DNA from: Micromonospora radicis
Lineage (GTDB): Bacteria > Actinomycetota > Actinomycetes > Mycobacteriales > Micromonosporaceae
Assembly (NCBI RefSeq): GCF_003583405.1
Contig: NZ_QXEC01000013.1
Coordinates: 1 to 64,000 of the forward strand
DNA length: 64,000 nt
Direction: 5' to 3'
Below, piece after piece: positions 1-19,197 of this stretch. The position numbers and the translations under genes were made by a program. Each line of letters begins with the position of its first letter. Position 1 is the first letter of the stretch. Below the pieces are notes generated by a model. The model searched no databases, was not told the origin of the DNA, and was given only the letters and a program-made list of their open reading frames with translations.

Positions 1-3000
1 CCCGCCGACGGCCACGCCGCGAGCACGGCGTCGACCGGCTCGGGCGACAGGAACGAGCGCAGCAGGTCGTACAGCGGCTCCTGCCGGTGGTCACCCGGAC
101 GCCGTCGGTCGGCCACCTGCTGGATCTCGGCGATCGCGCCGTCGGCGTCGCCGATCAGCAACCGGGCGATGGATCGCAGCTCGCCGTGCCGGAACGGCGA
201 GATGTTCGCCTGCATCCGGCACGTCAGCCCCTGGCGCGCGAGGCGGTCGGCCTCGTCGACGTCTCGTGGATGGACCGTGATCGCGAGCAGCACGATCGCT
301 TCGATCTCGTTGTTGGGCCCGATCCGGATGGCCTCGCGTAGTTCGCGTTCCGCGTCCGCCGGCCGGCCGCTGAGGATCAGCGCCTCGCCGTAGTTGGCCC
401 GGCTCCCACTCAGCGTCGGGTTCAGCCGCACCGCCTCGGCCAGCGCCTCGGCCGCCTCGGCATACCGTCCCAGGTTGTTGAGGACGATGCCGTGCACGTC
501 GTGCGTGATCGGATCGGTCGGGTCGGCGGCGAGCGCGTCAGCGACGGTGGCGAGCGCGTCCTCCGGGCGGTCCAGTTCCAGTTGGGCGTAGATCAAGGAA
601 CGCCGCAGCTGTGGTGCCTTGGGGCGTAGCGCGATGGCCCCGTGCAGCATCTCCATCGCCTCGTCAACGCGGCCGACTGCCCGCAACGCGGAGGCGAAGT
701 TGGCCGTGTGGTACGGGTTGGTCGGGGCCAACCGGGTCGCTTCGGCGTACGCCTCGACCGCCTCCTGCGCGCGGCCGAGCCCGATGAGGACTCCGCCGCG
801 GATCCCGTGCGCGAGGTGGTCGGACCGGTCCAGTTCGAGCACGATGTCCACCTCGGTCAGGGCTTCTTCGTGCCGGCCGGTCTCCGACAGCGCGTGGGCC
901 AGCGCCCGACGCTGCCTCGCGTCCGGCAGGATCTCGACCGCCCGACGGTAGGCCTCGACGGCTTCGGCGTGCCGGCCGGCGCGTTGCAGGGCGATACCGA
1001 GGTTGAAGTGGTTCACCGATGACGTCGGGTCGCGCTCGACCGCCCGCTCGTAGGCGCCCAGCGGTGTCGTCTCCACACCCCGGACGTACGCCTTCATCAG
1101 CTCACCGGCCACCTCGTCGCTCCAGCCGAGGCTGAGTTGGAGCTGTTCGAGAGCCGCGAGGCCGTTCTGCTTCTCCGCCGGGGGACCGTACTGGCCGGCC
1201 CACCGCACGAACTGCAGCGCCAGGTCGTGTTTGCCGTGCTGTTCGGCGCCGATCGCCGCGTACAGCCAGCTCTCCGCGTACTCCTCGAAGCGGAGCGTGG
1301 CGAAGGTTCCGCCGTAGAGCACCTCGGCGGAGTCCCCGTCCTCGAGCCGGCCCTTCAACCAGTCGATCAGCTGGGAGTGGCCGAAGACCAGCTCGGCATC
1401 GTTCTGGGCGAGGCGTGCGGCGACGAACTGCGCGGCCTCGTAGCGGCCCCACCCCGGGTCGAAGGACGTGCTGGTCCTGAGGATCTGCCTGGCCAGCGGA
1501 GATCCGATGAGCTGGGCGTTGCGGAGCGTCAGCTTGTCCCACTGGTCCCACTGTCCGGCGTCGGCCGCGGCGACCCACTCGGACAGTACGGCGGCCACGT
1601 GCGAGATGTTGGTCAGGATGGCGGAGCCCGACGCTGGGTCGACGTCGTGGCGCGGTGGCTTGAGCGCTCCGCTACGCAGCTGCTCCACGATCTCGGTGTA
1701 CGTCGCGTCGACGACGTGCCGGTACTCGGGGAACTCGTGCTCGAGGAAGCCGAGCGCGCCGGCCTCGTCGTTCGTCTCGATGAACGCCTCGAACTCGTCC
1801 ATCTGCTCGGCGAGCATGAGCCGTGCCAGCTTGAGGCCAACCTGCTTCTCAAGATGGTCGAGGATCCAGTCGAGCAGCTGGCGGGCCTCCGCCTCGGACC
1901 CGTACTCGATGCCCACCTCCTTCAGTAGGTTGGGGCCAAGAGAGATGCGTTCCCCCGTCGGCTCCTCCAACGTCTGGCTGTGCTGAAGTTCCCGCGCGGT
2001 GGCTACCAGTTCCTCCACCACGCGGAGATCCACCGCGGCTCGCTGGAGGAACTCGAAGATGATGCGGTACCCGGCGCGCTGGGCGCGTGCTATCGACACG
2101 AACTCGGCGAGATCGGGCGCGAGCCCGTTGCGCGCGAGGCCGAGAACCAGCCGGCCGTGCCACATCGGCGGCATCGCGGCGACGGTATCGGCGAGCACGC
2201 CGGTGCTGAGCGGGGCCGCGGACGTCTTCCTGATGGCCAGCACCGCTTCGCAGCGCACACTCCAGTGCAGCTCCGGGTCGCTGCCGGCCGCCTCCAGGCA
2301 GCGCAGACCGGTTCGGCCCGCCTCGGCCAGTCGCTTCGAGGCGTCCGGCCAGAAGTCCACCCCGTCGCCGCGCTCCCGAAGCACGCTCATCAGCGCCATC
2401 TCGGTCGACGGCAGCGCATGCCGGGCCATCTCCGTGATCAGTTCGAGTCGCTGCGGCTGACTCAGATCGTCGGACGTGGCCAGCTGGATCAGCGTCTCCT
2501 CGTCGGCGAGCGAGGGGTCGTTGCGTAGCAGGTTGTCGGCCAGCCGGAGTCGCATCCACGCCGGTACGCCGTCGTCGCTGTGCAGGTTCAGGGCGGCGGT
2601 GAGGCCGCGCTGGTCGTGCACCTCCACGAGAGCGCAGAGATGACGCAGCTTCAGGTCGAGCGCGACACCGCCGTGGTCGAGCTGTGCCGCGAGAAGGTCA
2701 CGCCCCGCCTCGCCCTGGCGGGCCAGCGCGCGGGCGAGCGACTCCCGGACGGTCCAGTTGACGTATCTGTTCGCCAGGGCGTGGGCGGCGTAGGTGACCG
2801 CATCGGTGACGCCATCCTCGATGAGCGCCAGAGCAAGCTCGGCGCGGTCTTCGTACCGCGGTTGCGGCGCGGCCAGCAGCCGCATGCTGGGTCCGACGAC
2901 GTCGGGAACCGCGGCCCGGATCAACTCGGCGTACAGCCGGCAGCGAAGTCCCCATTCCATGATGCGGTCCCCGGCGGTGTCACGGACGGCCGCCACGCCG

Positions 3001-5720
3001 GTCGTACCGCACTCCAGCAGTGCCCGCCCGATTTCCAGCCTGGCGTCGGTGTGCATCCGCCGGTTACGCAGCAGCCTGATCGCCGCGGCGACCGCGGGGC
3101 GGGAATGCGGGCGCAACACGGCGAGGAACGCGGTCAGGTCCTCCCTGCTCGCTGTCTGCCGTTCGAGCAGCTCGCGGACGAGGTCGGCGTCCTGGCGGGT
3201 ACCGAGGGCGACGAGGCCGCTGATGAGGCGTAGCCGCAGCTGCCGCGGGCAGTTGTCCGCGACGACGAGCGCGCGGGCCCGCCGCAGCGCGGCCTCGTCT
3301 CCGGCTTCGATGAGGGTGGACATGGCGATGTAGGCGATCTCCGCCTCGACGTCGGTACCGGTCTTCTGGCCCGACGACTCCTCCAACGCGGCCACCCGTT
3401 CGCCGGCCCAATCACGCAGTGGGCGCACCGAGGACCGCAGCAGGACGCTCAACGCGGCGAGCGCCCGGCGGCGTTCGAAGACCAGCGGGGACTGGGTGGC
3501 GGCCAGGATGGCGTCTCGTACCGCGGCTGCCGACGCCTCGTCCCGATAGTCCGGCACCTCGGCGATGATCTGCGCCGCCAGGGTGCGCTGGGTGACCCAG
3601 GGATCGCCCTCCTCGGACAGGATGTGGGCCACCAGGGCGGCGGGATCCGTGACGCGGCTGGCCGCCGCCACGAAGACCCGCGTCCAACTGGGGTCCATCC
3701 ACCGATGCTCGTCGATGCACTTCCGCTGGCCGTCGAGGGTCAGCCCGGCGAAGTAGGTGGCCAGGAGAGTCTCCCGCAGGAGCGGGTGGATGAAACGAAC
3801 GGTGGGCCGCATCGACGAGTCGCTGGCCTCCACCAGGATCCCGTCGTGGAGCAGTTCCCAGACGACCGGTTCGGCCAGGTCGGCGATGGGGTTGGGGGCG
3901 GACTCGAGCTGGGTGGTCAGACGAATCTTGGCCGTCGTCGCCACCGCGTCGTAGTCGGGATGGCGACGGATGGCGGCCCGAAGTTCCGCCTTCGGGATGT
4001 CCTCGACGCCGCCGCGCCAGGAGTCCTGTAGGCCACCGAGAACCTCGGCGAGTACCCGCATCCGCAGGAAGGCGTCCGGCATGGCCTCCCGGTCGGCCGG
4101 GCTGCGGGGGCCGCGCCAGCGGCCGGACAACAGGTGCAGGGCGACGTCGTAGTACAACTGGGGCAGCGTGGAGCGGCGGTAGTCCTGATGCTGAGCGGTA
4201 TCGGCCAGCCGGCACAGGAACGACAGCAGTAGCGGAACCTCGGCCAACTGTTCCAGTTCTGGCCGGTCGGCGAAGGCGGCCAGTAGCGAGTCGGCGGCAT
4301 CCGATCGGTCGTGCAACCAGGCGTGCACGAAGTTGACCGTCTCCCGGGAGGAGAAGCCGACCAACTGGAGATCCTCGCGATTGCCCACGGCAAGCTCGTC
4401 GATGATCGCCAGCGCGGCCGGGCGCGACGCCACCAGTAGGGTGTTGTTCACCGAGAGCAGCGTGACCAGGATCTGCTTGAACCGACCGGCCAGGCCGGTC
4501 GGCATCTCGTCCAGCCCGTCGACACACAGGAGTACCCGCCCGTCGTTGAGGGCGCGTTCGACCACGGCCACGTACCCACGGCCGTCGTCCTCCTCGGCCT
4601 GCGCGGGCGAGAGAGTCGCGGCGACCAATGTGCGGGCCAACCCGCGCACACCCATGCCGTGATCATTCTCGGACGCGAGCGTGGTGCAGGTCAGGCGCAC
4701 GGGAATGGTGCAGTCGTCGAGGGACCGACCGTCGTCCAGCAGCGCCACGGCGCGCTGGGCGGCCCGCATCGCATGGTGCTTGAGCAGCCACGACTTGCCG
4801 AATCCGGGATCACCGCTGACGACGGTCAAGCTGGACATGCTCCGGGCGACCTGCCACCGCTGCCGGACCGGGACACTCTCGCCGGACAACCGGGCGGGGG
4901 CGAGGCTACGGCGCAACCAGATGGTCTGGTGCAGCGCCTCGGCGTCGACGCCCTCCGGCATCGTGTCACGCTGAGACCCCGCCTCCCGGATCACCGCGTC
5001 GAGAATGTCGCGGGTGGCGGCTACCGGATCCGGCCCTTCGAAGTCGCCGGCCACCGCCGAACGCCACGCCGGATTCTTGCGATGATGGAGATCGTTCAAC
5101 GCCCAGACCGAATGCTCGAGCTGTTGCAGCATGGCTGCGGCGACGATCCAGGCGCCGTGCGGCTTTCCCGCGCCCCGGGTGGCCTTCACCACGCCGACGA
5201 TCCGCCCGGCCTCGCGATCCAGGACCGGCGAGCCGCTCATCCCGGGATCGACCGCGCCAAGCTTGACCTTCAGGACGTCGACGCCCTGCACCTCGACGAC
5301 CCCCTCGAACTCGAGGGTCGCCACATCGGGACCGAAGGAGCCCGGCGCGTCCACGGGCCGCTTGCTGTACCCGATCGCCATCAGTTCCCTGGCGGTGCCC
5401 GGCCGACCGAGCAGCACGCACGGCGTGTCCTCGAACTCACCGGCGCGGGCGGCGAGCACCGCCAGGTCGGGCATGGGGTACATGAACGCCTCGATGCCCG
5501 GGGCGATGTCCCGCGGATGCTTGTTCCAGACCAGCAGCGCTCGCAGCACGCCCTGCCGGTCCGGCGCGTAGACCACTCTGTCCACGGCGTCGTGCACCAC
5601 GTGAGCGGCCGTCACCGCGACGCCGGGCGCCACGAAGAAGGCTGTTCCAAGAAGGACGCCGGCCGCATCGGTCAATGGAACAGTCGCAATCCTGACAAGA
5701 CTTTCCAGCTTTGTCGTCAC
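1..5720 (-). CDS. Trypsin-like protease / P-loop NTPase / HEAT / TPR giant protein (C-terminus outside window)
   Basis: One uninterrupted minus-strand frame of 1906 codons runs from a GTG at 5718-5720 off the left edge; an in-frame TAG lies directly upstream of the GTG, which fixes the earliest start. Residues 1-185 are a trypsin-like (S1) protease with H40 in TAAH, D85 in MPDLAVL and S162 in GMSGSP. Residues about 295-600 are a STAND/NACHT-like NTPase: Walker A GDPGFGKS at 303-310 and Walker B LLCVDGLDEM at 397-406. About 620-1250 are HEAT/ARM-like helical pairs, and about 1550-1800 hold six or more TPRs (for example HFNLGIALQRAGRHAEAV). This architecture matches the protease-plus-NTPase conflict proteins known in multicellular bacteria, where an NTPase with repeat sensors gates an effector. 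By inference it is a regulated protease in phage defence or programmed death. The substrate and trigger are unknown, and the protein is incomplete here. Confidence 0.88.
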   Translation of the reverse strand, partial: MTTKLESLVRIATVPLTDAAGVLLGTAFFVAPGVAVTAAHVVHDAVDRVVYAPDRQGVLRALLVWNKHPRDIAPGIEAFMYPMPDLAVLAARAGEFEDTPCVLLGRPGTARELMAIGYSKRPVDAPGSFGPDVATLEFEGVVEVQGVDVLKVKLGAVDPGMSGSPVLDREAGRIVGVVKATRGAGKPHGAWIVAAAMLQQLEHSVWALNDLHHRKNPAWRSAVAGDFEGPDPVAATRDILDAVIREAGSQRDTMPEGVDAEALHQTIWLRRSLAPARLSGESVPVRQRWQVARSMSSLTVVSGDPGFGKSWLLKHHAMRAAQRAVALLDDGRSLDDCTIPVRLTCTTLASENDHGMGVRGLARTLVAATLSPAQAEEDDGRGYVAVVERALNDGRVLLCVDGLDEMPTGLAGRFKQILVTLLSVNNTLLVASRPAALAIIDELAVGNREDLQLVGFSSRETVNFVHAWLHDRSDAADSLLAAFADRPELEQLAEVPLLLSFLCRLADTAQHQDYRRSTLPQLYYDVALHLLSGRWRGPRSPADREAMPDAFLRMRVLAEVLGGLQDSWRGGVEDIPKAELRAAIRRHPDYDAVATTAKIRLTTQLESAPNPIADLAEPVVWELLHDGILVEASDSSMRPTVRFIHPLLRETLLATYFAGLTLDGQRKCIDEHRWMDPSWTRVFVAAASRVTDPAALVAHILSEEGDPWVTQRTLAAQIIAEVPDYRDEASAAAVRDAILAATQSPLVFERRRALAALSVLLRSSVRPLRDWAGERVAALEESSGQKTGTDVEAEIAYIAMSTLIEAGDEAALRRARALVVADNCPRQLRLRLISGLVALGTRQDADLVRELLERQTASREDLTAFLAVLRPHSRPAVAAAIRLLRNRRMHTDARLEIGRALLECGTTGVAAVRDTAGDRIMEWGLRCRLYAELIRAAVPDVVGPSMRLLAAPQPRYEDRAELALALIEDGVTDAVTYAAHALANRYVNWTVRESLARALARQGEAGRDLLAAQLDHGGVALDLKLRHLCALVEVHDQRGLTAALNLHSDDGVPAWMRLRLADNLLRNDPSLADEETLIQLATSDDLSQPQRLELITEMARHALPSTEMALMSVLRERGDGVDFWPDASKRLAEAGRTGLRCLEAAGSDPELHWSVRCEAVLAIRKTSAAPLSTGVLADTVAAMPPMWHGRLVLGLARNGLAPDLAEFVSIARAQRAGYRIIFEFLQRAAVDLRVVEELVATARELQHSQTLEEPTGERISLGPNLLKEVGIEYGSEAEARQLLDWILDHLEKQVGLKLARLMLAEQMDEFEAFIETNDEAGALGFLEHEFPEYRHVVDATYTEIVEQLRSGALKPPRHDVDPASGSAILTNISHVAAVLSEWVAAADAGQWDQWDKLTLRNAQLIGSPLARQILRTSTSFDPGWGRYEAAQFVAARLAQNDAELVFGHSQLIDWLKGRLEDGDSAEVLYGGTFATLRFEEYAESWLYAAIGAEQHGKHDLALQFVRWAGQYGPPAEKQNGLAALEQLQLSLGWSDEVAGELMKAYVRGVETTPLGAYERAVERDPTSSVNHFNLGIALQRAGRHAEAVEAYRRAVEILPDARQRRALAHALSETGRHEEALTEVDIVLELDRSDHLAHGIRGGVLIGLGRAQEAVEAYAEATRLAPTNPYHTANFASALRAVGRVDEAMEMLHGAIALRPKAPQLRRSLIYAQLELDRPEDALATVADALAADPTDPITHDVHGIVLNNLGRYAEAAEALAEAVRLNPTLSGSRANYGEALILSGRPADAERELREAIRIGPNNEIEAIVLLAITVHPRDVDEADRLARQGLTCRMQANISPFRHGELRSIARLLIGDADGAIAEIQQVADRRRPGDHRQEPLYDLLRSFLSPEPVDAVLAAWPSA

Positions 5721-5930
5721 CTACGTCGCCACCCATCCGGAGCACGCACGGCAGGAATACACAGCACTCTATTGTCGGTACACCGAACCGTCGCGCCCCT
5801 CGTCGCACTCGCACCGATCGGCCGATCCACACAGGTCAAGGGGTTCGCATCTCTGTCCAAACTGACCGGGCGCAGGATATGGGCACTGGTGTACGCAAGC
5901 TTCTATTCGACTCACACCCGAAAGGTGGCC

Positions 5931-6401
5931 ATGCAGATTCCCCACGCCCGCCGGCTACTGGGCGCACCGGTCAGTTCGTCCGACGGACAGTTCCTCGGCC
6001 GAATCGGCGCCGTCTACCTGCCGGAGGGACGAACCCAGCCGCTGCTGGTCGCCCTGCCGGTCGAGAAAGCCACCCCCTGGGTGGTACCCCTGCTCGGCGC
6101 CCGGCTCACGGCCGACGGTCTGGTGCTCGGCTACCCGACCGCACTGATCACTACCGGGCCGACCGTCGACCCGGACACGCCACTGTCGCTTGGCGAAGTC
6201 CGCGCAGTGCTCGCGCACTACCAGCCGGCCGCCGCCGAGGCCGTGCACGGAATGCCGCTGACCGAACGCGCCTCCGAGGGCGCTGACGTCAGCGCGACGG
6301 CCGGCTTCCTGCACCGGATCCCGGTGTTCCCCGGAATCGGCGACGACGACCTACCACCCATCGTGATCACCATCCCCGGCGCAACCGGGTTGCCGGGATG
6401 A
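5931..6401 (+). CDS. PRC-barrel-like small protein
   Basis: A 156-residue protein. Its N-terminal half (RRLLGAPVSSSDGQFLGRIG, then predicted beta strands ending near residue 75) resembles a PRC barrel, a small beta-barrel used in photosynthetic reaction centre H subunits and in RNA or protein binding. The remainder is acidic and proline-rich with no motif I recognise. The ATG at 5931 is preceded by AAAGGTGG at a good distance. The stop overlaps the next start by four bases (ATGA), so the two genes are surely cotranscribed. The pair is divergent from the protease-NTPase gene, with 210 bp between the start codons. Function is unassigned; it could be a cytoplasmic adaptor for the downstream membrane protein. 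Confidence 0.7.
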   Translation: MQIPHARRLLGAPVSSSDGQFLGRIGAVYLPEGRTQPLLVALPVEKATPWVVPLLGARLTADGLVLGYPTALITTGPTVDPDTPLSLGEVRAVLAHYQPAAAEAVHGMPLTERASEGADVSATAGFLHRIPVFPGIGDDDLPPIVITIPGATGLPG

Positions 6402-7258
6402 CCGTCCCCGAGCCGGCGTCGTCCCCGTTGTCGGCCGCCAACCAGCGAATCCGGGACACCGCCAAGTGGCTCATCGGCAGCGCCGCGGCGGTAGGCGCCG
6501 CCCTCATCGCCGGCAGCCAACTATCCAACATCGGGCGACTCAGCGTCGGATGGCCCACCTCGATGGAGACCGCACGGCTCTGGGTTGCCGCAGCTGGTGT
6601 CCTGTTGGGCTTGGCCGGGGTGGGGTTCGCGATCGCCGCTGCGGTGCGCGTGCTGCTGCCGGTCCAGGTGCTCATCTCCGACCTCGCCGAGAACTGGCAC
6701 GAGCCCGCCGCTGAGCTGCGGCCGGTGGTCGCGTTCTTCCAGCGACGCACGAAGTACCTCCAGGGCAGCAAGAACCCGGAGGAACTGATCAGGCGCCGTG
6801 ACGAGCTGGTGGAGAGGCTGCCGCAGCCCGACCAGGCTGCCGAGGCGCGTGCCGCGGTCCGCGCCGGCATCGCCTCGTACGACCGGCGCATCGCCGCGAT
6901 CGAGGAGATGGCCAACCACGAGGCGCTGAAGGCCACCTTCGAACGCGCCCTCCGCCGGGTGTTCCTGGCCACGATCGTCTCCGGCGCGGGAATCGTCGGG
7001 TTCGCCTGGGCCGCCAACCCGCCGAGTCCGCCCGCCGGTGCCGACCTGCGCAACGCCCGGTTGATCGGCGCGCAACTGCGCGACGTCGACCTCCGTGGGG
7101 CGAAACTCGACGGCGCCGACCTCACCGGTGCCGACCTGCGGGGCGCCGACCTGACCGGCGCCTCGATGATCCAGGTGACGTGGTCCAACACGATCTGTCC
7201 GGACGGCACGCTGAGCGATGCTGACGGCGGCACCTGCCAGGGGCACCTCCAGCCATAG
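6398..7258 (+). CDS. Pentapeptide-repeat membrane protein
   Basis: 286 residues. Two predicted membrane segments lie near residues 24-43 and 64-87. A charged helical stretch (about 95-185, rich in E, R and A) follows, with a third hydrophobic segment at about 190-207. The C-terminal part is a run of A(D/N)Lxx pentapeptide repeats (ADLRNARLIGAQLRDVDL and similar) of about ten units. Pentapeptide repeats form a right-handed quadrilateral beta helix, usually a protein-binding surface. The tail ends with a short Cys-containing segment (TICPDGTLSDADGGTC) often seen after such repeats. It overlaps the PRC-barrel gene by four bases. Topology suggests a membrane-anchored scaffold. The link to the divergent protease-NTPase gene is only positional. 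Confidence 0.75.
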   Translation: MTVPEPASSPLSAANQRIRDTAKWLIGSAAAVGAALIAGSQLSNIGRLSVGWPTSMETARLWVAAAGVLLGLAGVGFAIAAAVRVLLPVQVLISDLAENWHEPAAELRPVVAFFQRRTKYLQGSKNPEELIRRRDELVERLPQPDQAAEARAAVRAGIASYDRRIAAIEEMANHEALKATFERALRRVFLATIVSGAGIVGFAWAANPPSPPAGADLRNARLIGAQLRDVDLRGAKLDGADLTGADLRGADLTGASMIQVTWSNTICPDGTLSDADGGTCQGHLQP

Positions 7259-7349
7259 TCCGTAGCCCATCGTTGTCCACTCGGGCGAGCGGCCCACCGC
7301 CAACAGGTGCGCGATGGAGCCGGAAGGCCAGCGCCACGAGCCAGGCCGG

Positions 7350-7450
7350 TTACTCGCCGGCGCGCAGTACCTCGCTCAGCCGGTCGCGTCGGCGCAGCGC
7401 CGCCGCGACCGGTACGACCGCGGCGGCTGTCGCCACCAGCGCCACCCGGC
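7350..7450 (-). pseudogene. C-terminal remnant of an FtsX-type ABC permease
   Basis: Read on the minus strand, this frame gives RVALVATAAAVVPVAAALRR followed by RDRLSEVLRAGE and a TAA stop at 7350-7352. A hydrophobic helix, a basic junction and an ALRxxxPxxxLRAGE-like tail are typical of the last 35 residues of FtsX-like (MacB-type) permeases. No upstream part of such a gene exists here: the frame meets the aminotransferase remnant at about 7450. I read it as the surviving end of a deleted gene; the family call rests on a short stretch. Confidence 0.45.
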
Positions 7451-7558
7451 ATGGGAAGCACCTGCCGGATCGCGCCACCCCTCACCGCGACGCGCGAGGA
7501 GTTGGCCCTCGGGCTGGAGATCCTGGACCAGGCGATCGGCGAGGCGACGCCGGCCTGA
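7451..7558 (+). pseudogene. C-terminal remnant of a class III aminotransferase
   Basis: From the ATG at 7451 the frame reads MGSTCRIAPPLTATREELAL and then GLEILDQAIGEATPA before the stop. RIAPPLTAT-x-EEL-x-x-GL-x-IL is the characteristic C-terminal strand and helix of class III PLP-dependent aminotransferases (4-aminobutyrate and related enzymes). The catalytic lysine domain and everything else upstream are missing, so it cannot be an active enzyme. It abuts the oppositely oriented permease remnant, which suggests a recombination or deletion scar. Confidence 0.55.
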
Positions 7559-7697
7559 CCGGTCGCGTCACCCGTTCGCGTCGCGCCGACAGCGACGCCC
7601 GCAGGACGGTGATCGGGGGATAGGCTGCGGGGCGGCGTGCCACCGACCTAAGGGGACGGATGACGGGCGACGCGGTCTCGACCTGCGGAGGCTTGGC

Positions 7698-9227
7698 GTG
7701 AACGATGGGCTGCGTCCCGGTGACCCGACCCGACTCGGCGGGTACGAGCTGCTCGCCCGGCTCGGTGAGGGTGGCATGGGTACGGTCTTCCTGGCCCGGT
7801 CGTCGCAGGGACGGCGGGTGGCGGTCAAGGTCGTCCACCCGGAGCTGTCCTCCGACGACGAGTTCCGGGGCCGGTTCCGCAGTGAGGTGAACCGGGCGCG
7901 GCAGGTGCCGCCGTTCTGCACCGCCGAGGTGCTCGACGCCGACCCCGATCACGATCCGCCGTACCTGGTCGTGGAGTACGTCGAGGGGCCCAACCTGGCG
8001 CAGGTGATCCGGGCGCAGGGGCCGCAGGGGGCGGCGAGAACACACAGCATCGCGGTGGGGGTGGCCACCGCGCTCGCCGCGATCCACGGTGCCGGCGTGA
8101 TCCACCGGGATCTGAAGCCGGCGAACGTCCTGATCGCTCCGGGCGGGATCAAGGTCATCGACTTCGGTATCGCTCGCGCGTTCGAGGCGACGAGCCAGTA
8201 CACCCGGACCAACCAGGTGGTGGGAACCGTCGCGTACATGGCCCCGGAGCGGCTCGACACGTCGGCCGGCGTGCCGGTGGGTCCGGCGGCGGACATCTTC
8301 GCCTGGGGCCTGGTGGTCGCCCATGCCGCGACCGGCCGCAACCCCTTCGGTGGCGACTCGGCCACCGCCACCGCGATCCGGATCCTCACCCAACCGCCGG
8401 ACCTGACCGGGCTCGACGGGCCGCTGCGGGATCTGATCTCCCGGGCGTTGGAGAAGGATCCCGCCGCCCGGCCCACCGCCCGGGAACTGCTCGACGGACT
8501 GCTGACCGCGACGGACCCGCCGGCCGCCGGTGGCGACCCGGGTGGCTGGTCGACGCCGGCAGGGCCGGTCGACGGCGCGGGCGCGAAGCGGCGTGGGCTG
8601 CTCGCCGCGCTGGGCGCCACCGCCGCGGTGCTCGCGGTGCTGGTGCCCGCCTTCCTGTTCGGCCCGCAACTGCTGACCGCCCGTACCGATCCGGACCCCA
8701 CCGGCGCGCCGGTAACCGGCGGCGCCACACCCACGCCCACCTGGAGCACGCCCGCCGCGTCACCGGCTGCTGGCGCCGACCACACCCGGGCCGCCCTGTC
8801 CGGGCACCGACGGATCCTGCTGCACCTGGTGGAGGCCGACCGCAACCTGTCGATGGCGTACGGCGACGAGGTGAGCGCCGGCACCGGAACCGGCCCGGAA
8901 GCCCTCTTCGCCCTCGATCCGGTCGGCGTCGACTACATGATCAGATCGTTGAACCCGGACACCGCGGGCCGCCCCTGCCTCGGCGTGAAGATCGACTCCA
9001 CGGGGTACGCGTCGCTGATCGGCGCCGACTGTGAGCCGACTGTGGCGACCATGTTCAGGATCTTGCGGGAGGCCGAGGACGACGAGGGGCGCACCTCCTA
9101 CGCCATCCTCAACGACACGTACGGCGTGGTGGAGTGGGACCCGGACGAGAAGGAGATCTACGTGCAGGAGATCGGCGACGCCGAGGTCGGCACCACGTTC
9201 GTCCTGGTCGATCGCGGTGCGCTCTGA
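7698..9227 (+). CDS. Membrane-anchored Ser/Thr protein kinase
   Basis: 509 residues from a GTG at 7698 with GGAGG about seven bases upstream. The kinase domain (about 16-275) is complete: glycine loop GEGGMG at 23-28, ATP lysine K44 in VAVK, HRDLKPAN with catalytic D138, DFG with D155, an APE-type motif (APER) and PKN-like spacing. A proline/glycine-rich linker leads to one membrane helix at about 298-325, then a Pro/Thr-rich stalk. A roughly 145-residue extracellular domain follows, with two cysteines (CLGVKID and ADCEP) that may form a disulfide. That domain is neither PASTA nor another sensor I recognise. It phosphorylates Ser/Thr of unknown cytoplasmic targets, presumably in response to an external signal. 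It stands alone, without a phosphatase neighbour. Confidence 0.9.
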   Translation: MNDGLRPGDPTRLGGYELLARLGEGGMGTVFLARSSQGRRVAVKVVHPELSSDDEFRGRFRSEVNRARQVPPFCTAEVLDADPDHDPPYLVVEYVEGPNLAQVIRAQGPQGAARTHSIAVGVATALAAIHGAGVIHRDLKPANVLIAPGGIKVIDFGIARAFEATSQYTRTNQVVGTVAYMAPERLDTSAGVPVGPAADIFAWGLVVAHAATGRNPFGGDSATATAIRILTQPPDLTGLDGPLRDLISRALEKDPAARPTARELLDGLLTATDPPAAGGDPGGWSTPAGPVDGAGAKRRGLLAALGATAAVLAVLVPAFLFGPQLLTARTDPDPTGAPVTGGATPTPTWSTPAASPAAGADHTRAALSGHRRILLHLVEADRNLSMAYGDEVSAGTGTGPEALFALDPVGVDYMIRSLNPDTAGRPCLGVKIDSTGYASLIGADCEPTVATMFRILREAEDDEGRTSYAILNDTYGVVEWDPDEKEIYVQEIGDAEVGTTFVLVDRGAL

Positions 9228-9367
9228 GACGCACCCCGGCGACCCGGGCAGCGAGGTCGTGCGCCGGTCGGTGCGTGAGGCGGGTCCGGCGGTCGGCCCG
9301 GCCCGCGAGCGCCGTCGACCGCGCCGAGGCGGAGCAGCCTCGCAGCGGCCGGCCCGGCGGGCGAACG

Positions 9368-10384
9368 TCAGCGGCTGCCGTCCCCGACGATGGCGGCCGG
9401 TAGGGGAGCGTCGGCGCGGAGCAACCCCTCGGCCACCAGCTCCGCCCAGAACTGCGGCGGCGGGGGCGTGGCGGTCAGTAGCGCGGCGTTGCGGCGTACC
9501 TGCTCCGGGTGGTCGGCGCCGACCACCACGGCGGCGACCGCCGGATGCGCGGCGGCGAAGGCCAGCGCCGCCGCCGGCAGCGACGTGTCGTGTCGGGCGC
9601 AGACCTCGACGATCGCGTGGACCCGGGCGAGTACCGACTGCGGCACGTGCGCGTACTCGTAGCGCAGTCCGGCGTGCGGCCGGGGCACGGCCAGCAGGCC
9701 GCTGTTGAACACACCGGCGTTGAGCACCGACACCCCACGCCGCTGGCAGTCCGGCAGCAACTCGTCCAGCGCCGGCTGTTCCAGCAGGGTGTACCGGCCG
9801 GCGATCATGATCGCGTCGATGTCGGTGTCGGTGACGAAGCGGTGCAGCACGGGCCAGTGCTTCGAGCCGACCCCGATCGCGCCGACGACGCCCTGGGCCC
9901 GCAGCTCGTGCAGGGCCGGGTAGGCCTGGGCCAGGGCCTGCGCCTGGTGGTCCTCCGGATCGTGGATCAACACCAGGTCGACGCGGTCCACGCCGAGCCG
10001 GTCCAGGCTCGACTCCAGGCAGCGGTGCGTCCCGTCGGCGCTGAAGTCCCACACCCGCCGGTGGTCGGCCGGGACGTGGAAACCCTCCGGGTCGCGTCGG
10101 TGCGACCCGGACCGTACCGGTACCAGCCGCCGTCCCACCTTGGTGCTGATCGCGTACGCCTCGCGGGGCAGCGTACGCAGCGCGGCGCCGAGCCGGCGCT
10201 CGGAGAGCCCGAGCCCGTAGTGCGGTGCGGTGTCGAAGTACCGGACACCGCACTCCCAGGCCGCCCGTACCGTGTCGGTGGCCTCGGCGTCGTCGATCGC
10301 GGCCCAGAGGTTGCCCAACTGGGCGCAGCCCAGACCGAGGCGGCTGACGGTCGCCGCCGACCGACCCAGGCGCACGCCGGTCAT
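9368..10384 (-). CDS. Aldo/keto reductase, L-fucose (D-threo-aldose) 1-dehydrogenase-like
   Basis: 338 residues with the AKR barrel motifs: FDTAPHYG (catalytic D and Y), STKVGR (lysine) and LVLIHDPEDH (histidine). The stretch between KVGR and the histidine, including GFHVPADHRRVWDFSADG, is typical of D-threo-aldose 1-dehydrogenases (EC 1.1.1.122). These oxidise L-fucose and related sugars to lactones using NAD(P). It is the last gene of a three-gene operon, and its ATG overlaps the SDR stop by four bases. Operon company supports a sugar-oxidation role. The exact sugar (L-fucose, L-galactose or D-arabinose) cannot be read from sequence. Confidence 0.82.
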   Translation of the reverse strand: MTGVRLGRSAATVSRLGLGCAQLGNLWAAIDDAEATDTVRAAWECGVRYFDTAPHYGLGLSERRLGAALRTLPREAYAISTKVGRRLVPVRSGSHRRDPEGFHVPADHRRVWDFSADGTHRCLESSLDRLGVDRVDLVLIHDPEDHQAQALAQAYPALHELRAQGVVGAIGVGSKHWPVLHRFVTDTDIDAIMIAGRYTLLEQPALDELLPDCQRRGVSVLNAGVFNSGLLAVPRPHAGLRYEYAHVPQSVLARVHAIVEVCARHDTSLPAAALAFAAAHPAVAAVVVGADHPEQVRRNAALLTATPPPPQFWAELVAEGLLRADAPLPAAIVGDGSR

Positions 10385-11145
10385 GTCGCGCCGGCGGGCA
10401 GCCGCAGCCCGTGCATGCCGCCGTCGACGGCGAGCACGCTGCCGGTGGTCGAGCCGGCCAGCGGACCGGCCAGGTAGGCGACGGCGGCAGCCACCTCCTG
10501 CGGGGTGGTGAGCCGGCCGGTGGGCTGCCGGGCCCGCAGCGCGGCCAACTCGGCTGCCGGGTCCGCGGCGGCGGCCAGCAGCCGGCGTACCCACGGGGTG
10601 TCGGCCGTACCCGGGTTGACGCAGTTGACCCGGATGCCCGCCGACACGTAGTCGGCGGCCATCGCCAGGGTGAGCGCCTGGACGGCGCCCTTGCTGGCGC
10701 TGTAGAGCGCCCGTTGCGGCAACCCGAGCCAGGCGGCGATCGAACCGATGTTGACGACGGCGGCGTGCGACGACGCCCGCAGGTACGGCAGCGCGGCCCG
10801 GGTGACCCGGACGATGCCGACCACGTTGACGTCGAGCACCCGGTGCCACTCGTCGTCGTCGTTGCTCTCGATGGTGCCGAGCGCACCGACGGCGGCGTTG
10901 TTGACCAGGACGTCGAGGCCGCCGAACGCGTCGTGGGCGGCGGCGATCGCGGCCCGCACCGACGCGTCGTCGGCCACGTCGGCCGCCAGGCCGAGCAACG
11001 GCTCCGGTACCTCAGGGTTGACGTCCAGGCAGGCGACCCGCGCGCCCCGCTCGGCGAGCAGGGTGGCGGTGGCCAGGCCGATGCCGGAGGCGCCGCCGGT
11101 GACCACCGCCGTCAGACCGGTGAACTCCCGCCCGCCGCCGCTCAT
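10381..11145 (-). CDS. SDR-family dehydrogenase, probable 2-keto-3-deoxy-L-fuconate dehydrogenase type
   Basis: 254 residues, a classical short-chain dehydrogenase. It has the nucleotide-binding TGGASGIG at 17-24, an acidic residue (LDVN) after the second strand favouring NAD, the NNAA motif, a catalytic serine in NIGSIAAW, YSASK with the Tyr-Lys pair, and the PG motif in VNPGTADTPW. In the L-fucose catabolic pathway of Xanthomonas and similar bacteria, an SDR oxidises 2-keto-3-deoxy-L-fuconate before an FAH-family hydrolase acts. The same partners overlap it here by four bases on each side. SDR substrates are not readable from sequence, so the specific assignment is contextual. Confidence 0.8.
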   Translation of the reverse strand: MSGGGREFTGLTAVVTGGASGIGLATATLLAERGARVACLDVNPEVPEPLLGLAADVADDASVRAAIAAAHDAFGGLDVLVNNAAVGALGTIESNDDDEWHRVLDVNVVGIVRVTRAALPYLRASSHAAVVNIGSIAAWLGLPQRALYSASKGAVQALTLAMAADYVSAGIRVNCVNPGTADTPWVRRLLAAAADPAAELAALRARQPTGRLTTPQEVAAAVAYLAGPLAGSTTGSVLAVDGGMHGLRLPAGAT

Positions 11146-11990
11146 GCCGGCGCCAGCGTCTGCCGCTGCCGACCCAGGCCGTCGATCTCCAACTCGACCA
11201 CGTCCCCGGCGGCCAGGTACGGCTTGGGCTCCGGCAGCCCGAGCGCGACGCCGGCCGGAGTGCCGGTGTTGATGACGTCACCGGGGTAGAGCACCATGAA
11301 CTGACTCAGGTAGCGCACCACCTCCACCACCGGGAAGATCATGTCCTTGGTGCTGCCGTCCTGGCGCAGCACGCCGTTGACCCACAGCCGTAGCCGCAGA
11401 TCCTGCGGGTCCGGTATCTCGTCGGCGGTCACCAGCCACGGGCCGAACGGGTTGAACGTCTCGCACGACTTGCCCTTGTCCCACTGGCCGCCGCGTTCCA
11501 GCTGGAACTCCCGCTCGGAGACGTCGTGGGAGATGGCGTATCCGGCGATGCAGTCCCGTGCGGCCTGCGTCGACGGCAGGTAGCGTGCCTGGCGGCCGAT
11601 GACGACGGCCAGTTCCACCTCCCAGTCCGTCTTGGTGCTGCCGCGGGGCACCAGCACGGCGTCGTCGGGGCCGACCACAGTGTCCGCTGCCTTCAGGAAG
11701 ACCACCGGCTCGGCGGGCAGCGCCGCCCCGGTCTCGGCGGCGTGGTCGCGGTAGTTGAGGCCGACGCAGACGATCTTGCCCGGGCGCAGCGGGGGACCGG
11801 TCCGCAGCCCGGTGTCGTCGAGCACCGGCAGGTCGTCCGGGTGCACCGCGGCCAACCGGGCGAGTCCGTCGGCCGCCAGGAACGCGGCGTCCAGGTCGTC
11901 GACCACGGTACGCAGGTCACGCAGCCGTCCGGTGTCGTCGAGCAGCGCCGGGAACTCCCGTCCCGGCGGGCCCACCCGCAGCAGCTTCAC
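11142..11990 (-). CDS. Fumarylacetoacetate hydrolase family protein, 2,4-diketo-3-deoxy-L-fuconate hydrolase-like
   Basis: 282 residues with the FAH fold: the catalytic domain opens with KIVCVGLNYRDHAAE, the metal-binding acidic pair lies in DWEVELAVVIG, and GDVINTGTPAGVALG is the conserved loop near the end. I chose the GTG at 11988-11990 (VKLLRVG) because the family begins with this strand and a G-rich site precedes it; the frame remains open further upstream without homology. It is the first gene of the operon and would cleave a diketo-deoxy sugar acid into pyruvate or lactate plus a hydroxy acid. The L-fuconate dehydratase step is not encoded in the window. Confidence 0.82.
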   Translation of the reverse strand: MKLLRVGPPGREFPALLDDTGRLRDLRTVVDDLDAAFLAADGLARLAAVHPDDLPVLDDTGLRTGPPLRPGKIVCVGLNYRDHAAETGAALPAEPVVFLKAADTVVGPDDAVLVPRGSTKTDWEVELAVVIGRQARYLPSTQAARDCIAGYAISHDVSEREFQLERGGQWDKGKSCETFNPFGPWLVTADEIPDPQDLRLRLWVNGVLRQDGSTKDMIFPVVEVVRYLSQFMVLYPGDVINTGTPAGVALGLPEPKPYLAAGDVVELEIDGLGRQRQTLAPA

Positions 11991-12027
11991 CCGTCGCCCC
12001 CAGACATCACGTCGCAATGAGTCGGCA

Positions 12028-12042
12028 ATACATCCGATGTCT
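12028..12042. promoter_or_regulatory. Palindromic operator candidate upstream of the sugar-oxidation operon
   Basis: The palindrome ACATC-C-GATGT (12030-12040) inside ATACATCCGATGTCT sits 38 bp upstream of the FAH start, in an otherwise GC-rich gap. A 15-base relative with 12 matches, ATACATCTGATGATT, occurs in front of the GH2 gene at 49009. It is likely a transcription-factor site; the factor is not identified. Confidence 0.45.
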
Positions 12043-12166
12043 ACCAGGTGATCGTGATGGCTCACAAGGCCGGCGGCCGGTCCTGGCCGGACCACGACCG
12101 GGCAGACATCGGACCGGCTCGTCCGGCAGCCGGCGGGCGGCGCGGGTCGCCTTGTCGTCGTCTGCC

Positions 12167-12814
12167 ATGCTCTGGGCCGTGACGACCGGCCACCCCCGAT
12201 CCCACCGTCGTAGCCGCCACCGTCTACCGCGCCTGCTGCTCGCCGTCGGCCTGGTGGCCGCGCTCGCCGCCGCTGCCGTGCTGGTGGTGCCGTACCTGCT
12301 GCCGCCGGGCCCGCGTCCGCTGTTCCAGCTCCCCGTGGCCTGCGGCGAGACCTGGCAGGCGGGCACCTATCCCGGCCACGACGACTACGACGTGGACTTC
12401 TTCCCGATCGAGGGAGAGTCGTGGGGGCGGCCGGTGCTCGCCTCCTACGAGGGCACGGTCACCGTGGCGGGGATCAACGGGACGCTCGGCGGCCGTACCC
12501 CCGATGACCCGGACGGCCCCCGGGGTCGGGGCGGCGGCTACTGGGTCAAGATCGACCACGGCGGTCGCTGGGAGACGCAGTACCTGCACCTGCTCGAACC
12601 GCCGCTGGTGCGGGTGGGGCAGCGGGTCGCCCAGGGCGAGCAGATCGGGCGCCTGGGCAGCACCGGCAACTCCGGCGCGCCGCACCTGCACTACGAGCAG
12701 CGCCGGGGCTGGGAGAAGGTCGAGGCCTGGTTCGACGGCCAGCCGTCGGGCATCACCCACGACGACTTCGAGTACACCGTGCGGCTGACCAGCAACAACT
12801 GCGTCAGCGGATAG
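12167..12814 (+). CDS. M23-family (LytM) metallopeptidase, membrane anchored
   Basis: 215 residues. After a basic N-terminus a single hydrophobic segment (about 24-46) anchors or exports the protein. The domain then carries the M23 signatures: H-x(n)-D (GHDDYDVDF), a long glycine-rich loop, and GSTGNSGAPHLHYE with the HLH zinc ligands. M23 enzymes cut peptidoglycan cross-bridges, or act as inactive adaptors. Both metal-binding motifs are present here, so it may be active. The start is uncertain: ATG 12167 is used, and GTG 12179 is equally possible. It is divergent from the FAH operon and has no obvious partner. Confidence 0.78.
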   Translation: MLWAVTTGHPRSHRRSRHRLPRLLLAVGLVAALAAAAVLVVPYLLPPGPRPLFQLPVACGETWQAGTYPGHDDYDVDFFPIEGESWGRPVLASYEGTVTVAGINGTLGGRTPDDPDGPRGRGGGYWVKIDHGGRWETQYLHLLEPPLVRVGQRVAQGEQIGRLGSTGNSGAPHLHYEQRRGWEKVEAWFDGQPSGITHDDFEYTVRLTSNNCVSG

Positions 12815-12979
12815 GCCGGCGGCGACGCGGCCGACCCGATGCCGTACCCCGGCGATGCAGTGTGCGGCATTGCGGCGGGCGGCTCGCCCTCCGCCGGGCC
12901 GCCCTCCGCCGGACTGCCGGCTGCCGGGTTTGCGGTTAACGTGGGCTCAGGCAACGGCCGGAAGGATCCAGGGAGGACC

Positions 12980-14515
12980 ATGTCCAGCACCAGATTCGGG
13001 TTGGCCGGCGCGACGCTCGCGCTGCTGCTCACGGCGGTCGCCGGCTGCAGCGCGGGTGAGGGCGTCGAGGTGGACGGAGCCGACGGCGGGGCCGCCGGTG
13101 GGGTCCTCAACGCCGCCATCGGCGGCGAGCCCGACCAACTCGACCCGCACAAGACCTCGGCCTACTACAGCTTCCAGGTGTTGGAGAACGTGTTCGACAC
13201 CCTCGTCGAACCGGACGCGAACCTGGAGATGAAGCCGTCCCTGGCCACCGACTGGACCACCAGCGACGACCAGCTGACCTGGACCTTCACCCTCCGCGAG
13301 GGGGTGAAGTTCGCCGATGGGTCGCCGCTGACCGCCGAGGACGTCGTCTACTCCTACCAGCGGATCATCGACGAGCAGCTGAACACCGCGTACAAGTTCG
13401 GCACCGTCGAGTCGATCACCGCGCCCGAACCGACCACCGTGGTCGTCAAGCTGAGCGCGCCCACCCCGAACCTGCTGGCCAATCTCGGCGGCTTCAAGGG
13501 CGTGGCGATCGTGCAGAAGGCCAACGTCGAGTCCGGCGAGATCACCACCAGGCCGGTCGGCAGCGGCCCGTTCGCCGTCGCCGGCTACACCTCCGGCGAC
13601 AACATCCAGCTGGTTCGCAACGACAACTACTGGGGCGAGAAACCGAAGCTCGACGGGGTGCGGTTCACCTTCGTCAGCGACCCCACGGTGGCCCTGCAGA
13701 ACCTGCGCGGCGGTGAGGTGCAGTGGACCGACAACCTGCCGCCGCAGCAGGTGCCCGCCCTGCGTGACGCCGACGACCCGACTGTGCAGTCGGTGCCGTC
13801 GACCGACTACTGGTACCTGGCCCTCAACCAGGCCCGCAAGCCCTACGACGACGTCAACGTGCGGCGGGCGATCGCCTTCGCGCTGGACCGGGAAGCGATC
13901 ACCCGGGCCGCCAAGTTCGGGCTGGCCACGGTCAACCAGGCCGCCATCCCGCAGAACAGCGCCTTCTACTACGAGTACGCGCCGTACTCCCACGACCCCA
14001 ACCAGGCCCGGCAACTGCTCGACCGGGCCGGGGTCGGCGACCTGACGATGGACCTGATGGTCACCAGCGAGTACCCCGAGACGGTCACCGCCGCGCAGGT
14101 CATCGCCGCACAGCTGGAGGGCATCGGCGTCACCGTCCGGATCCGCACCCTGGACTTCGCGCAGTGGCTCGACGAACAGGGCAACGGCAACTTCGACTCG
14201 TTCATGCTCGGCTGGCTGGGCAACATCGACCCGGACGAGTTCTACTACGCCCAGCACCACAGCGGCGGCACGTTCAACTTCCACAAGTACCGCAACCCCG
14301 CCGTGGACCAGCTGCTCGACCGGGCCCGTACGGAGACCGACCAGGCCGCGCGCAAGCAGCAGTACGAGCAGGTCGCGAAGCAGATCGTCGACGACGCCAG
14401 CTACATCTACCTCTACAACCCCGACGTCGCGCAGGGCTGGTCGACGAAGGTGTCCGGCTACGAGGTACGCACCGACCGGGCGATCCGCTTCCGCGACGTG
14501 TCCCTCGCCAGGTGA
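12980..14515 (+). CDS. Peptide/nickel-type ABC transporter substrate-binding lipoprotein (SBP family 5)
   Basis: 511 residues with a lipoprotein signal (TAVAGCSAG lipobox, lipidated Cys about 20 residues in) and the family-5 core (GGEPDQLDPHKT, LREGVKFADGSPLTAEDVVYS, VGSGPF, NDNYWGEKP). The ATG at 12980 follows GGGAGGA. It captures an oligopeptide or similar ligand outside the membrane and delivers it to the permeases encoded just downstream (18 bp gap, then overlapping genes). The family binds very varied ligands, so the substrate is undetermined. A short direct repeat of GCCCTCCGCCGG precedes the gene. Confidence 0.9.
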   Translation: MSSTRFGLAGATLALLLTAVAGCSAGEGVEVDGADGGAAGGVLNAAIGGEPDQLDPHKTSAYYSFQVLENVFDTLVEPDANLEMKPSLATDWTTSDDQLTWTFTLREGVKFADGSPLTAEDVVYSYQRIIDEQLNTAYKFGTVESITAPEPTTVVVKLSAPTPNLLANLGGFKGVAIVQKANVESGEITTRPVGSGPFAVAGYTSGDNIQLVRNDNYWGEKPKLDGVRFTFVSDPTVALQNLRGGEVQWTDNLPPQQVPALRDADDPTVQSVPSTDYWYLALNQARKPYDDVNVRRAIAFALDREAITRAAKFGLATVNQAAIPQNSAFYYEYAPYSHDPNQARQLLDRAGVGDLTMDLMVTSEYPETVTAAQVIAAQLEGIGVTVRIRTLDFAQWLDEQGNGNFDSFMLGWLGNIDPDEFYYAQHHSGGTFNFHKYRNPAVDQLLDRARTETDQAARKQQYEQVAKQIVDDASYIYLYNPDVAQGWSTKVSGYEVRTDRAIRFRDVSLAR

Positions 14516-14533
14516 GCCGGCGGGGGACATCCG

Positions 14534-15478
14534 ATGGCCCGGTTCGTCATCCGGCGGCTGCTGCAGTCCGCCGTCGTGCTGCTCGGCGTGACCCTGGTCG
14601 TGTTCCTGCTGCTGCAACTGGTCCCCGGTGACCCGGTCCGGGTCGCGCTGGGCACCCGGTTCGACCCGCAGACCTATGAGGCGCTGCGGGCTCGGGCCGG
14701 GCTGGACCAGCCACTGGTGGTGCAGTACTTCGACTACCTGCGGCGGGCGTTGACCGGCGACCTCGGGGTCAGCTTCCGCAGCGGCCGCCCGGTCACCTCG
14801 ATCGTGTTGGAGCGGCTGCCCGCGACGCTGTCGCTGGCGGTCACCGCCGTGCTGTTCGCGCTGCTGATCGCCGTACCACTCGGCATTCTCTCGGCCGTGC
14901 GCAGCGGCTCGTTCATCGACCACGCGGCACGGGTGTTCAGCCAGTTCGGGGTCTCGGTGCCCGACTTCTGGATGGGCATCATGGGCATTCTGCTCTTCGC
15001 CGGGGTCCTCGGCTGGCTGCCGCCCTCGGGCTACGTGGCGCTCACCGAGGATCCGGCCAGGTGGGCCTCGCACGTCGCGCTACCGGCAGCCACGGTGGGA
15101 CTGGTCACCGCCGCCATCCTCACCCGCTTCATCCGTTCCTCGATGCTGGAGGTGCTCGCCGAGGACTACGTGCGCACCGCCGAGGCGAAGGGCCTGCGCA
15201 CCCGTACGGTGGTGCGGCGGCACGTGCTGCGCAACGCCCTGATCCCGGTGGTGACCGTGGTCGCCGTGCAACTGGCCAGCCTGCTCGGTGGCGTCATCGT
15301 CATCGAGGTGCTGTTCGCCTGGCCCGGCATCGGTCGGCTCACCTACGACGCGGTCCAGGCCCGGGACTACCCCGTGCTACAGGGGGCCGTACTGCTGGTG
15401 GCCGCCCTGTTCCTGCTGATGAACCTCCTGGTGGACATCCTCTACGCCCGCCTCGACCCGAGGATCACGGTCGAATGA
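14534..15478 (+). CDS. ABC transporter permease, DppB/OppB type
   Basis: 314 residues with six predicted membrane helices and the DppB-type N-terminus (RLLQSAVVLLGVTLVVFLLL, then VPGDPV). The EAA loop reads YVRTAEAKGLRTRTVVRRHVL, the ATPase-docking motif. It is the first of two heteromeric permeases and its stop overlaps the DppC-type gene by four bases. It forms the channel for the ligand of the upstream family-5 binding protein. Confidence 0.92.
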   Translation: MARFVIRRLLQSAVVLLGVTLVVFLLLQLVPGDPVRVALGTRFDPQTYEALRARAGLDQPLVVQYFDYLRRALTGDLGVSFRSGRPVTSIVLERLPATLSLAVTAVLFALLIAVPLGILSAVRSGSFIDHAARVFSQFGVSVPDFWMGIMGILLFAGVLGWLPPSGYVALTEDPARWASHVALPAATVGLVTAAILTRFIRSSMLEVLAEDYVRTAEAKGLRTRTVVRRHVLRNALIPVVTVVAVQLASLLGGVIVIEVLFAWPGIGRLTYDAVQARDYPVLQGAVLLVAALFLLMNLLVDILYARLDPRITVE

Positions 15479-18397: not shown

Positions 18398-18444
18398 CCC
18401 GTCGGTCGGTCTGTCTTGACGTGTCGGCCAACGCTGTCCACTAT

Positions 18445-18472
18445 CCCTATATGTTTGATGGAGTATGTAGGG
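18445..18472. promoter_or_regulatory. Imperfect inverted repeat before the Rrf2 gene
   Basis: Arms CCCTATATG and (G)TATGTAGGG flank a short AT-rich centre, 17 bp upstream of the Rrf2 start, in the only AT-rich patch of this gap. Position and symmetry fit an autoregulatory operator overlapping the promoter. TCCCTAT recurs before sbp at 19136. Confidence 0.5.
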
Positions 18473-18488
18473 CATCGGGGGCCTAGTC

Positions 18489-18923: not shown

Positions 18924-19130
18924 GCCCGACTCTGCCGCGTCGCTAAGGCTTGAAAACCTGTCGAGTTGGTGGGATATTCGGTGCGCGGTCGGCGCGGACG
19001 ATCGAAGCTGCCGCGCCGGCACCTGCTGGGCGCGGCGACCGTTCGCCGCCTTCGGCGTCGCTGGTGGGGCATCGTGGCCCGACCGTGACCGCAAACCCTG
19101 TAGCACCTTCCCGCGGTAACCCAAATCGGG

Positions 19131-19163
19131 CGTATTCCCTATTTAATTGGTCGGATTTATATA
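19131..19163 (+). promoter_or_regulatory. AT-rich promoter/operator region of the sulfate transporter operon
   Basis: An AT-rich block (TATTCCCTATTTAATTGG, then TTTATATAGT) lies 35-67 bp before the sbp start in otherwise about 70 percent GC DNA. It shares TCCCTAT with the inverted repeat before the Rrf2 gene. A -10-like TATATA is included. The role is inferred from position and composition. Confidence 0.45.
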
Positions 19164-19197
19164 GTGCGGCGCGCACTGGATGGAGGACACGACTGCG

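Follow-up and report, generated by a model that had tools for sequence, protein, structure and literature searches.

A giant trypsin-NACHT-HEAT-DUF5663-TPR protein in Micromonospora radicis: a likely NLR-like receptor-protease of the bacterial conflict kind

The giant protein and its cassette

We analyzed a 64,000-nucleotide stretch of Micromonospora radicis DNA (the window), whose base 1 is base 1 of contig C5 in the source assembly (5.96 Mb, 83 contigs). At this edge lies a gene for a giant protein that joins a trypsin-like protease, a NACHT NTPase, a HEAT-like solenoid, DUF5663 and a TPR tail in one chain, and next to it are two small genes, the second of which encodes a protein with transmembrane (TM)-like segments and pentapeptide repeats. 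The features are as follows.

3..5720, minus strand: giant trypsin-NACHT-HEAT-DUF5663-TPR protein, 1906 amino acids (aa), truncated at the 3′ end where the contig stops
5190..5648, minus strand: trypsin-like (HtrA-type) serine protease domain, residues 25–177, with H40, D85 and S162
4308..4829, minus strand: NACHT NTPase, residues 298–471, from Pfam, invariant residues and Foldseek
3783..3788, minus strand: invariant H645-P646 within FIHPLLRE, after the NACHT core
2010..3692, minus strand: HEAT-like alpha-solenoid, residues ∼677–1237, from the AlphaFold2 model and Foldseek
1683..1928, minus strand: DUF5663 (PF18908) domain, residues 1265–1346, from Pfam (4.2e-11), a genome profile search (2.2e-12) and the alignment
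3..1103, minus strand: TPR tail, residues ∼1540–1906, from Pfam
5931..6401, plus strand: 156-aa protein, no family assigned, gene divergent to the giant one, LPPIV in the C-terminal tail
6398..7258, plus strand: 286-aa protein with TM-like segments and, at the C-terminus, pentapeptide repeats; overlaps the preceding gene at ATGA

As the original prediction had it, the giant protein occupies a single unbroken frame of 1906 residues; it runs on the minus strand from the GTG at 5720 to base 3 and is still open at base 1. A relative with 79% identity (P0003) is 1908 aa long, so the frame is probably short by a few codons only. Trypsin_2 (residues 25–177, 7.1e-10), NACHT (298–471, 2.1e-12) and TPR (from ∼1550; TPR_2, 8e-23) were all over the Pfam curated cut-offs, and the protease domain is HtrA-type by fold match. 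The protease with its H40/D85/S162 triad, the P-loop NTPase with Walker A (GDPGFGKS, 303–310) and Walker B (LLLCVDGLDE, 396–405), and the TPR tail, all read earlier from the letters, were thereby recovered, the NTPase signature being strong and not chance-level. The protease fold and a complete catalytic triad are present, and protease activity is predicted.

The HEAT-like superhelix, also foreseen, was found in the structure: an AlphaFold2 model of the first 1200 residues (pLDDT 83.2) forms an alpha-solenoid from residue ∼660 onward, and Foldseek matched it to karyopherins, CAND1, importin-beta and PP2A-A. Pfam HEAT was not among the matches listed for the giant protein (25 of 30 families); HEAT models are present in the distant relatives P0098, P0101 and P0118. 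DUF5663 at residues 1265–1346 and a conserved helical region at ∼1350–1540 had been overlooked. For modeled residues 1–1200 the best Foldseek rows were NOD2 (3.3e-9), NLRC4 (1.3e-8) and NLRP3 (2.8e-7), with low TM-scores (0.17–0.27) that are normalized by the 1200-residue model length. The FIHPLLRE segment after the NACHT core we take, alongside this NLR-like fold match, to be a winged-helix-like motif. In the model, the succession of protease, NACHT and repeat sensor resembles the architecture of NOD/NLR immune receptors.

The 156-aa protein is 73% identical to its counterpart at a second copy of the locus (L021, genome G420). It had no Pfam match at E 0.1, and a PRC barrel, our first guess for it, was rejected on that result. 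In the 286-aa protein, Pfam Pentapeptide matched at 214–249 (2.5e-23) and three hydrophobic stretches lie at ∼25–43, 68–86 and 188–206.

When the window was compared by blastn with 59.8 kb around the G420 copy, a single common block was detected (window 2–7253 vs. L021 10611–17858, 80.6% DNA identity over 7272 columns). It spans the giant, 156-aa and 286-aa genes and ends at most 5 bases from the last stop codon. The G420 cassette is flanked on both sides by polyketide synthase genes within a ∼180-kb stretch (4.03–4.21 Mb of C3). This flank gave short matches only in our genome (best 1.6e-6), and the kinase flank of the window gave short matches only in G420 (best 5.9e-13 over 197 bases). Because so similar a cassette has nothing around it in common, the three genes probably travel together. 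These comparisons are most simply explained by transfer of the cassette, the alternative being differential loss around it. The gene that adjoins the cassette in the window (7314–9227) encodes a Ser/Thr kinase, whose PADLOC PD-T4-6 kinase matches look generic.

Conservation, distribution and neighbors of the giant gene

From the protein search, P0024 to P0064 were excluded as repeat or part matches before the family was counted, leaving 22 of 63 sequences, our own included. The best 120 of 145 rows of a profile search added P0065–P0069, which carry DUF5663, for an alignment of 27; P0070 and P0071 (trypsin, 56 and 74% coverage, DUF5663 not listed) were left out. The searches scored the best 7,990 and 7,992 candidates, and the family may be larger. 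Residues H40, D85, S162, G306/G308/K309 and D401/D404/E405 were invariant in 22 of 22 and then in 27 of 27 sequences, as were, in the 27, the GxSG motif, R433 and H645-P646; Walker A S310 is replaced by T in one. The TPR tail is optional: it is present in P0002–P0017 and P0065 (1907–2257 aa) and not listed in P0018–P0023 and P0066–P0069, which stop before it (1537–1576 aa). All members with an organism name (9 of 27) are Actinomycetota (Micromonospora, Dactylosporangium, Amycolatopsis, Streptomyces, Actinoplanes), and so are seven family loci, Nonomuraea among them.

Residues 1–1540 had a near-full match in 4 of 354 genomes of the taxonomic family (our own, G420, G429 and G787); the other 78 matching genomes had the trypsin, the NACHT or another part only. 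By profile search, DUF5663 was detected in 1 of 396 Actinomycetota genomes, in 7 of 397 genomes of the order (three with the giant protein, one with a different NTPase protein, three with a short protein) and in 6 of 160 of the genus (three, two and one, respectively). The genus hits for DUF5663 do not include G787 despite its near-full match, so this marker misses divergent members. The distribution is not that of a housekeeping gene: the giant gene is an accessory gene, rare and patchy. Three scans of viral contigs gave no relative, and a plasmid search gave one distant NACHT piece and no DUF5663.

Flanks were read in nine distinct genomes: the window, G420 (L021), RHAY321 (L003, the same place as L022) and L004–L009. 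A Trypco1 gene overlaps the giant gene start by 4–17 bases in three of them (L003, L004 and L007; Pfam 7.5e-14, 9e-10 and 3.1e-11, respectively). At L005 and L006, which represent the same orthologous site, the gene that ends ∼60 bases upstream of the giant gene encodes a nucleoside phosphorylase; Pfam, run on L005 only, gave PNP_UDP_1 at 4.7e-34, and the L006 protein is 72% identical. The divergent small-gene pair is found in two, the window and L021. Relatives linked to Trypco1 are 64–67% identical to our giant protein and the one with the membrane pair ∼79%. This change of neighbors between close relatives hints at an exchange of output parts. By its definition, Trypco1 is a neighbor of conflict-system trypsins (PMC7159879), and nucleoside phosphorylase is an effector class of such systems (PMC7159879, PMC8195603).

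Downstream, a peptide deformylase gene lies directly after the giant gene at L004:14590–15519 (Nonomuraea) and L006:14634–15509 (Streptomyces), overlapping its end by open reading frame call (4.8e-33 and 5.3e-31), and a shorter piece of such a gene follows at L005.

Trypco1 was also considered for the window locus and is absent from it; the genome has a single match, at C18 (L026:6270–15167), where a Trypco1 gene accompanies a 1350-aa trypsin-NTPase-WD40 protein. Beside this pair is a divergent gene pair that includes a 1132-aa protein with PADLOC mad8/HerA matches. This is a second likely conflict system in the genome. The genome encodes at least three long trypsin-NTPase proteins, those of the window, of C18 (WD40 tail) and of C34.

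The membrane family and DUF5663 in other settings

The N-terminal 210 residues of the 286-aa protein were matched in 15 of 160 genus genomes, strongly in eight (nine places with E < 1e-58, two of them in our own genome) and more weakly in 7 (E 2.9e-6 to 3e-4); in the order sample the TM-pentapeptide family occurs in 1 of 85 genera. At all seven strong places away from the giant gene, its gene stands between a 122–131-aa gene and a trypsin-NTPase gene directly after it (in L078 the contig ends inside the latter). On the three of seven places scanned with Pfam, Trypsin_2 was at 2.2e-6, 2.1e-6 and 3.3e-5, the last below cut-off; AAA_16 was below cut-off in all three, and the P-loop is visible in the sequence. 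The copy in our genome (C34, L076:5589–10514) is an operon of a 128-aa protein, the TM-pentapeptide protein and a 1231-aa trypsin-NTPase; it is orthologous in six other genus genomes, and the C-terminal internal repeats seem variable in number (L081, L077). Between this trypsin-NTPase and the giant protein there is no alignable similarity beyond a 22-residue piece at E 0.16. One membrane family is thus linked with two unrelated trypsin-NTPases.

The unrelated small proteins of the two settings (window 5931–6401 and L076:10131–10514) end in a tail with LPPIV and then PG in 9 of 9 sequences, a statistically weak likeness (hhalign probability 6.3%; some shared 5-mer in 5% of shuffles). Trypco2, which the 128-aa protein seemed to resemble, was rejected: Pfam gave no match, no hit of the Trypco2 model in the genome exceeded its cut-off, and C34 gave no hit at all.

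DUF5663 also occurs as a large family of stand-alone proteins (301 matches); among the best 120 listed, the few with an organism name include two Saccharibacteria, one cyanobacterial metagenome-assembled genome and Jatrophihabitans. The DUF5663 embedded in the giant protein is 40% identical to the saccharibacterial P0254. In two actinobacterial families, represented by G778 (same genus) and G399, a DUF5663 gene heads a RADAR-like operon (L030:4756–9648 and L025:1867–7090): it overlaps a KAP-like NTPase gene by 4 bases, which abuts or overlaps an adenosine-deaminase gene, and the G+C content is lowered (0.53–0.59). Pfam gave KAP_NTPase at 2.1e-7 and 1.2e-5 and A_deaminase at 1e-17 and 4.4e-15; the PADLOC matches were weak for RdrB (3.7e-6, 1.9e-8) and RdrA (0.0028, 0.0043), and other models scored better. 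In G531 and G864 DUF5663 is part of other P-loop NTPase proteins, which also show weak TPR-type matches. In Jatrophihabitans (L024:4197–6988) the gene directly adjoining that of DUF5663 encodes a type IV coupling-protein-like ATPase (TrwB_AAD_bind, 2.7e-7).

In a FastTree tree of 151 DUF5663 sequences, 18 of the 27 giant-protein copies formed one clade (0.936) and the others were ungrouped in the 106-column alignment, so no origin is readable for the embedded domain. The search for a solved structure of DUF5663 had as its best row (1.2e-9) a designed repeat protein; none of the matched stretches passed by itself, and the match was rejected as an artefact. A full-text literature search found no paper that names DUF5663, nor is it named in the available part of PMC12102498; two papers name Trypco1.

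Interpretation, known systems and rival explanations

Proteins that combine trypsin and STAND parts are already known (PMC7159879, PMC8195603, PMC10907252). The original prediction had supposed that the domain order might be uncharacterized; no description of this order was found in the literature, searched without supplements, although the kind of protein is not new. Likewise, none of the titles listed for pentapeptide repeat/trypsin/STAND or Micromonospora/NACHT describes the three-gene cassette.

With bNACHT and NLR proteins the giant protein shares a central NACHT between an N-terminal effector and a C-terminal superhelical sensor, but the defensive bNACHT25 and bNACHT32 carry a PD-(D/E)XK nuclease (PMC12169576) in place of the HtrA-like protease of the giant protein, whose sensor contains DUF5663 and TPR. 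In CARD-NLR/LypABC systems a trypsin-like protease and an NLR-like ATPase also act together, but they are encoded by separate genes, and the protease has an N-terminal CARD (PMC13236601). The giant protein is one chain, with no CARD in the model or among the matches listed; the model begins with one helix at 4–12, followed by protease strands, and as the protease starts near residue 13 there is no room for a preceding CARD. Three relatives share with the Trypco1-linked trypsin conflict systems (Kaur et al., 2020) the adjacent Trypco1 gene, whereas the window has an unrelated gene pair in its place. The likeness to RADAR (RdrA/RdrB) lies in DUF5663 only; the giant protein is not a RADAR component. 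MoxR, vWA and VMAP were not found among the listed matches of the giant protein or in the scanned neighbors.

The most likely reading of the giant protein is a receptor-protease of NLR-like (STAND) type that belongs to the bacterial conflict systems and may act by way of the membrane pair; that it is a STAND-gated protease of this kind at all we hold with good confidence. This reading follows from the invariant catalytic residues, the NLR fold matches, the patchy distribution, the Trypco1 and phosphorylase neighbors and the cassette, as well as from the TM-pentapeptide family before a second trypsin-NTPase and from DUF5663 in NTPase proteins and RADAR-like operons. A role in defense is inferred from these sequence data.

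Several observations weigh against it. PADLOC recognized no known anti-phage system in the giant protein, matching parts only (trypsin part, RT-Protease_XI at 3.3e-6 and PDC-M35A at 2e-4; tail, a TPR model at 0.0083). The window locus does not look like a defense island: eight genes scanned with Pfam in 7314–21888 encode a kinase, a regulator, and transport and metabolic functions. On its left side the cassette runs into the contig edge, and that border is not visible. The small genes and the giant gene are divergent, so that their co-expression is not given, and neither small gene was found in the fetched flanks of seven of the nine loci; at L008 and L009 (one orthologous site) no partner was seen adjoining the giant gene. 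The TM segments of the 286-aa protein were called from hydropathy alone. Finally, the seven TM-pentapeptide/trypsin-NTPase loci are one orthologous site, with flanks in common, and were counted as one event. Of the conflict or defense system proposed originally, the NLR-like layout, the patchy distribution and the partners of relatives speak in favor, whereas a defense island at the window and a PADLOC system were not found.

A STAND-gated protease could instead regulate the bacterium's own development or secondary metabolism, its NACHT sensing a host signal and its protease cutting a regulator. Bacterial STAND NTPases have mainly been studied as NTP-dependent transcription regulators (PMC7159879), the G420 cassette sits inside a polyketide synthase cluster, and that of the window has a Ser/Thr kinase gene and uptake genes as neighbors. 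However, the rarity of the gene (4 of 354 genomes), the conflict-system neighbors of its relatives and the lack of a common flank between the window and G420 make this explanation improbable.

A scaffold or chaperone-like role, in which the trypsin fold would bind peptides but not cleave them (behavior reported for most trypsins that occupy the effector position in fusions with vWA proteins), fits poorly with H, D, S and GxSG invariant in 27 of 27 members, and we regard it as very improbable. Scarcely credible is an Avs1-type system in which the protease fires a pro-nuclease of the metallo-β-lactamase (MBL) fold. Avs1 (AVAST type 1) does combine a trypsin-like protease with a STAND protein, and a trypsin-fused defense protein beside an MBL pro-nuclease gene is the pattern of Avs1, Hachiman and Lamassu (PMC12799240), but the giant gene has other partners: among the nearby genes scanned, no MBL hydrolase was found in the Pfam-scanned window genes or the seven adjacent L003–L008 genes, and no PADLOC Avs model was hit; a pro-nuclease gene could lie elsewhere in the genome.

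If the giant protein is a receptor-protease of the conflict kind, its NACHT would hold ADP at rest and keep the protease inactive. Binding of a ligand to the HEAT, DUF5663 or TPR part would allow nucleotide exchange and oligomerization, and oligomerization would bring the HtrA-like proteases together and switch them on. The protease would then cut a dedicated partner, here most likely the 156-aa or the TM-pentapeptide protein, and this cleavage would free a membrane effector that arrests or kills the cell. For relatives, the partner would instead be Trypco1 or the nucleoside phosphorylase. We lean slightly toward the cassette genes being functional partners of the giant protein. That DUF5663 is an adaptor or input domain is a tentative assignment, and membrane damage as the output is rather doubtful.

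A further and unlikely proposal is that two parts are exchangeable: (i) a membrane module, made of the small protein with the LPPIV tail and the TM-pentapeptide protein, which unrelated STAND-gated trypsins would fire proteolytically; and (ii) DUF5663 as a common adaptor or integrated bait, possibly mimicking a protein of a Saccharibacteria epibiont. Saccharibacteria live on actinobacteria, and the idea of mimicry comes from the stand-alone DUF5663 found in them. If true, the membrane module would make a membrane-directed equivalent of the protease/pro-nuclease pairs already known.

Enrichment in multicellular bacteria has been reported for conflict systems with trypsin-like effectors (PMC7159879), and the protease targets are known for few such systems, the MBL pro-nucleases being one case (PMC12799240). 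The cassette, together with the same partner family beside an unrelated trypsin-NTPase, would provide a short, directly testable list of candidate protease targets, and DUF5663 would gain its first functional context, in NTPase-driven conflict systems.
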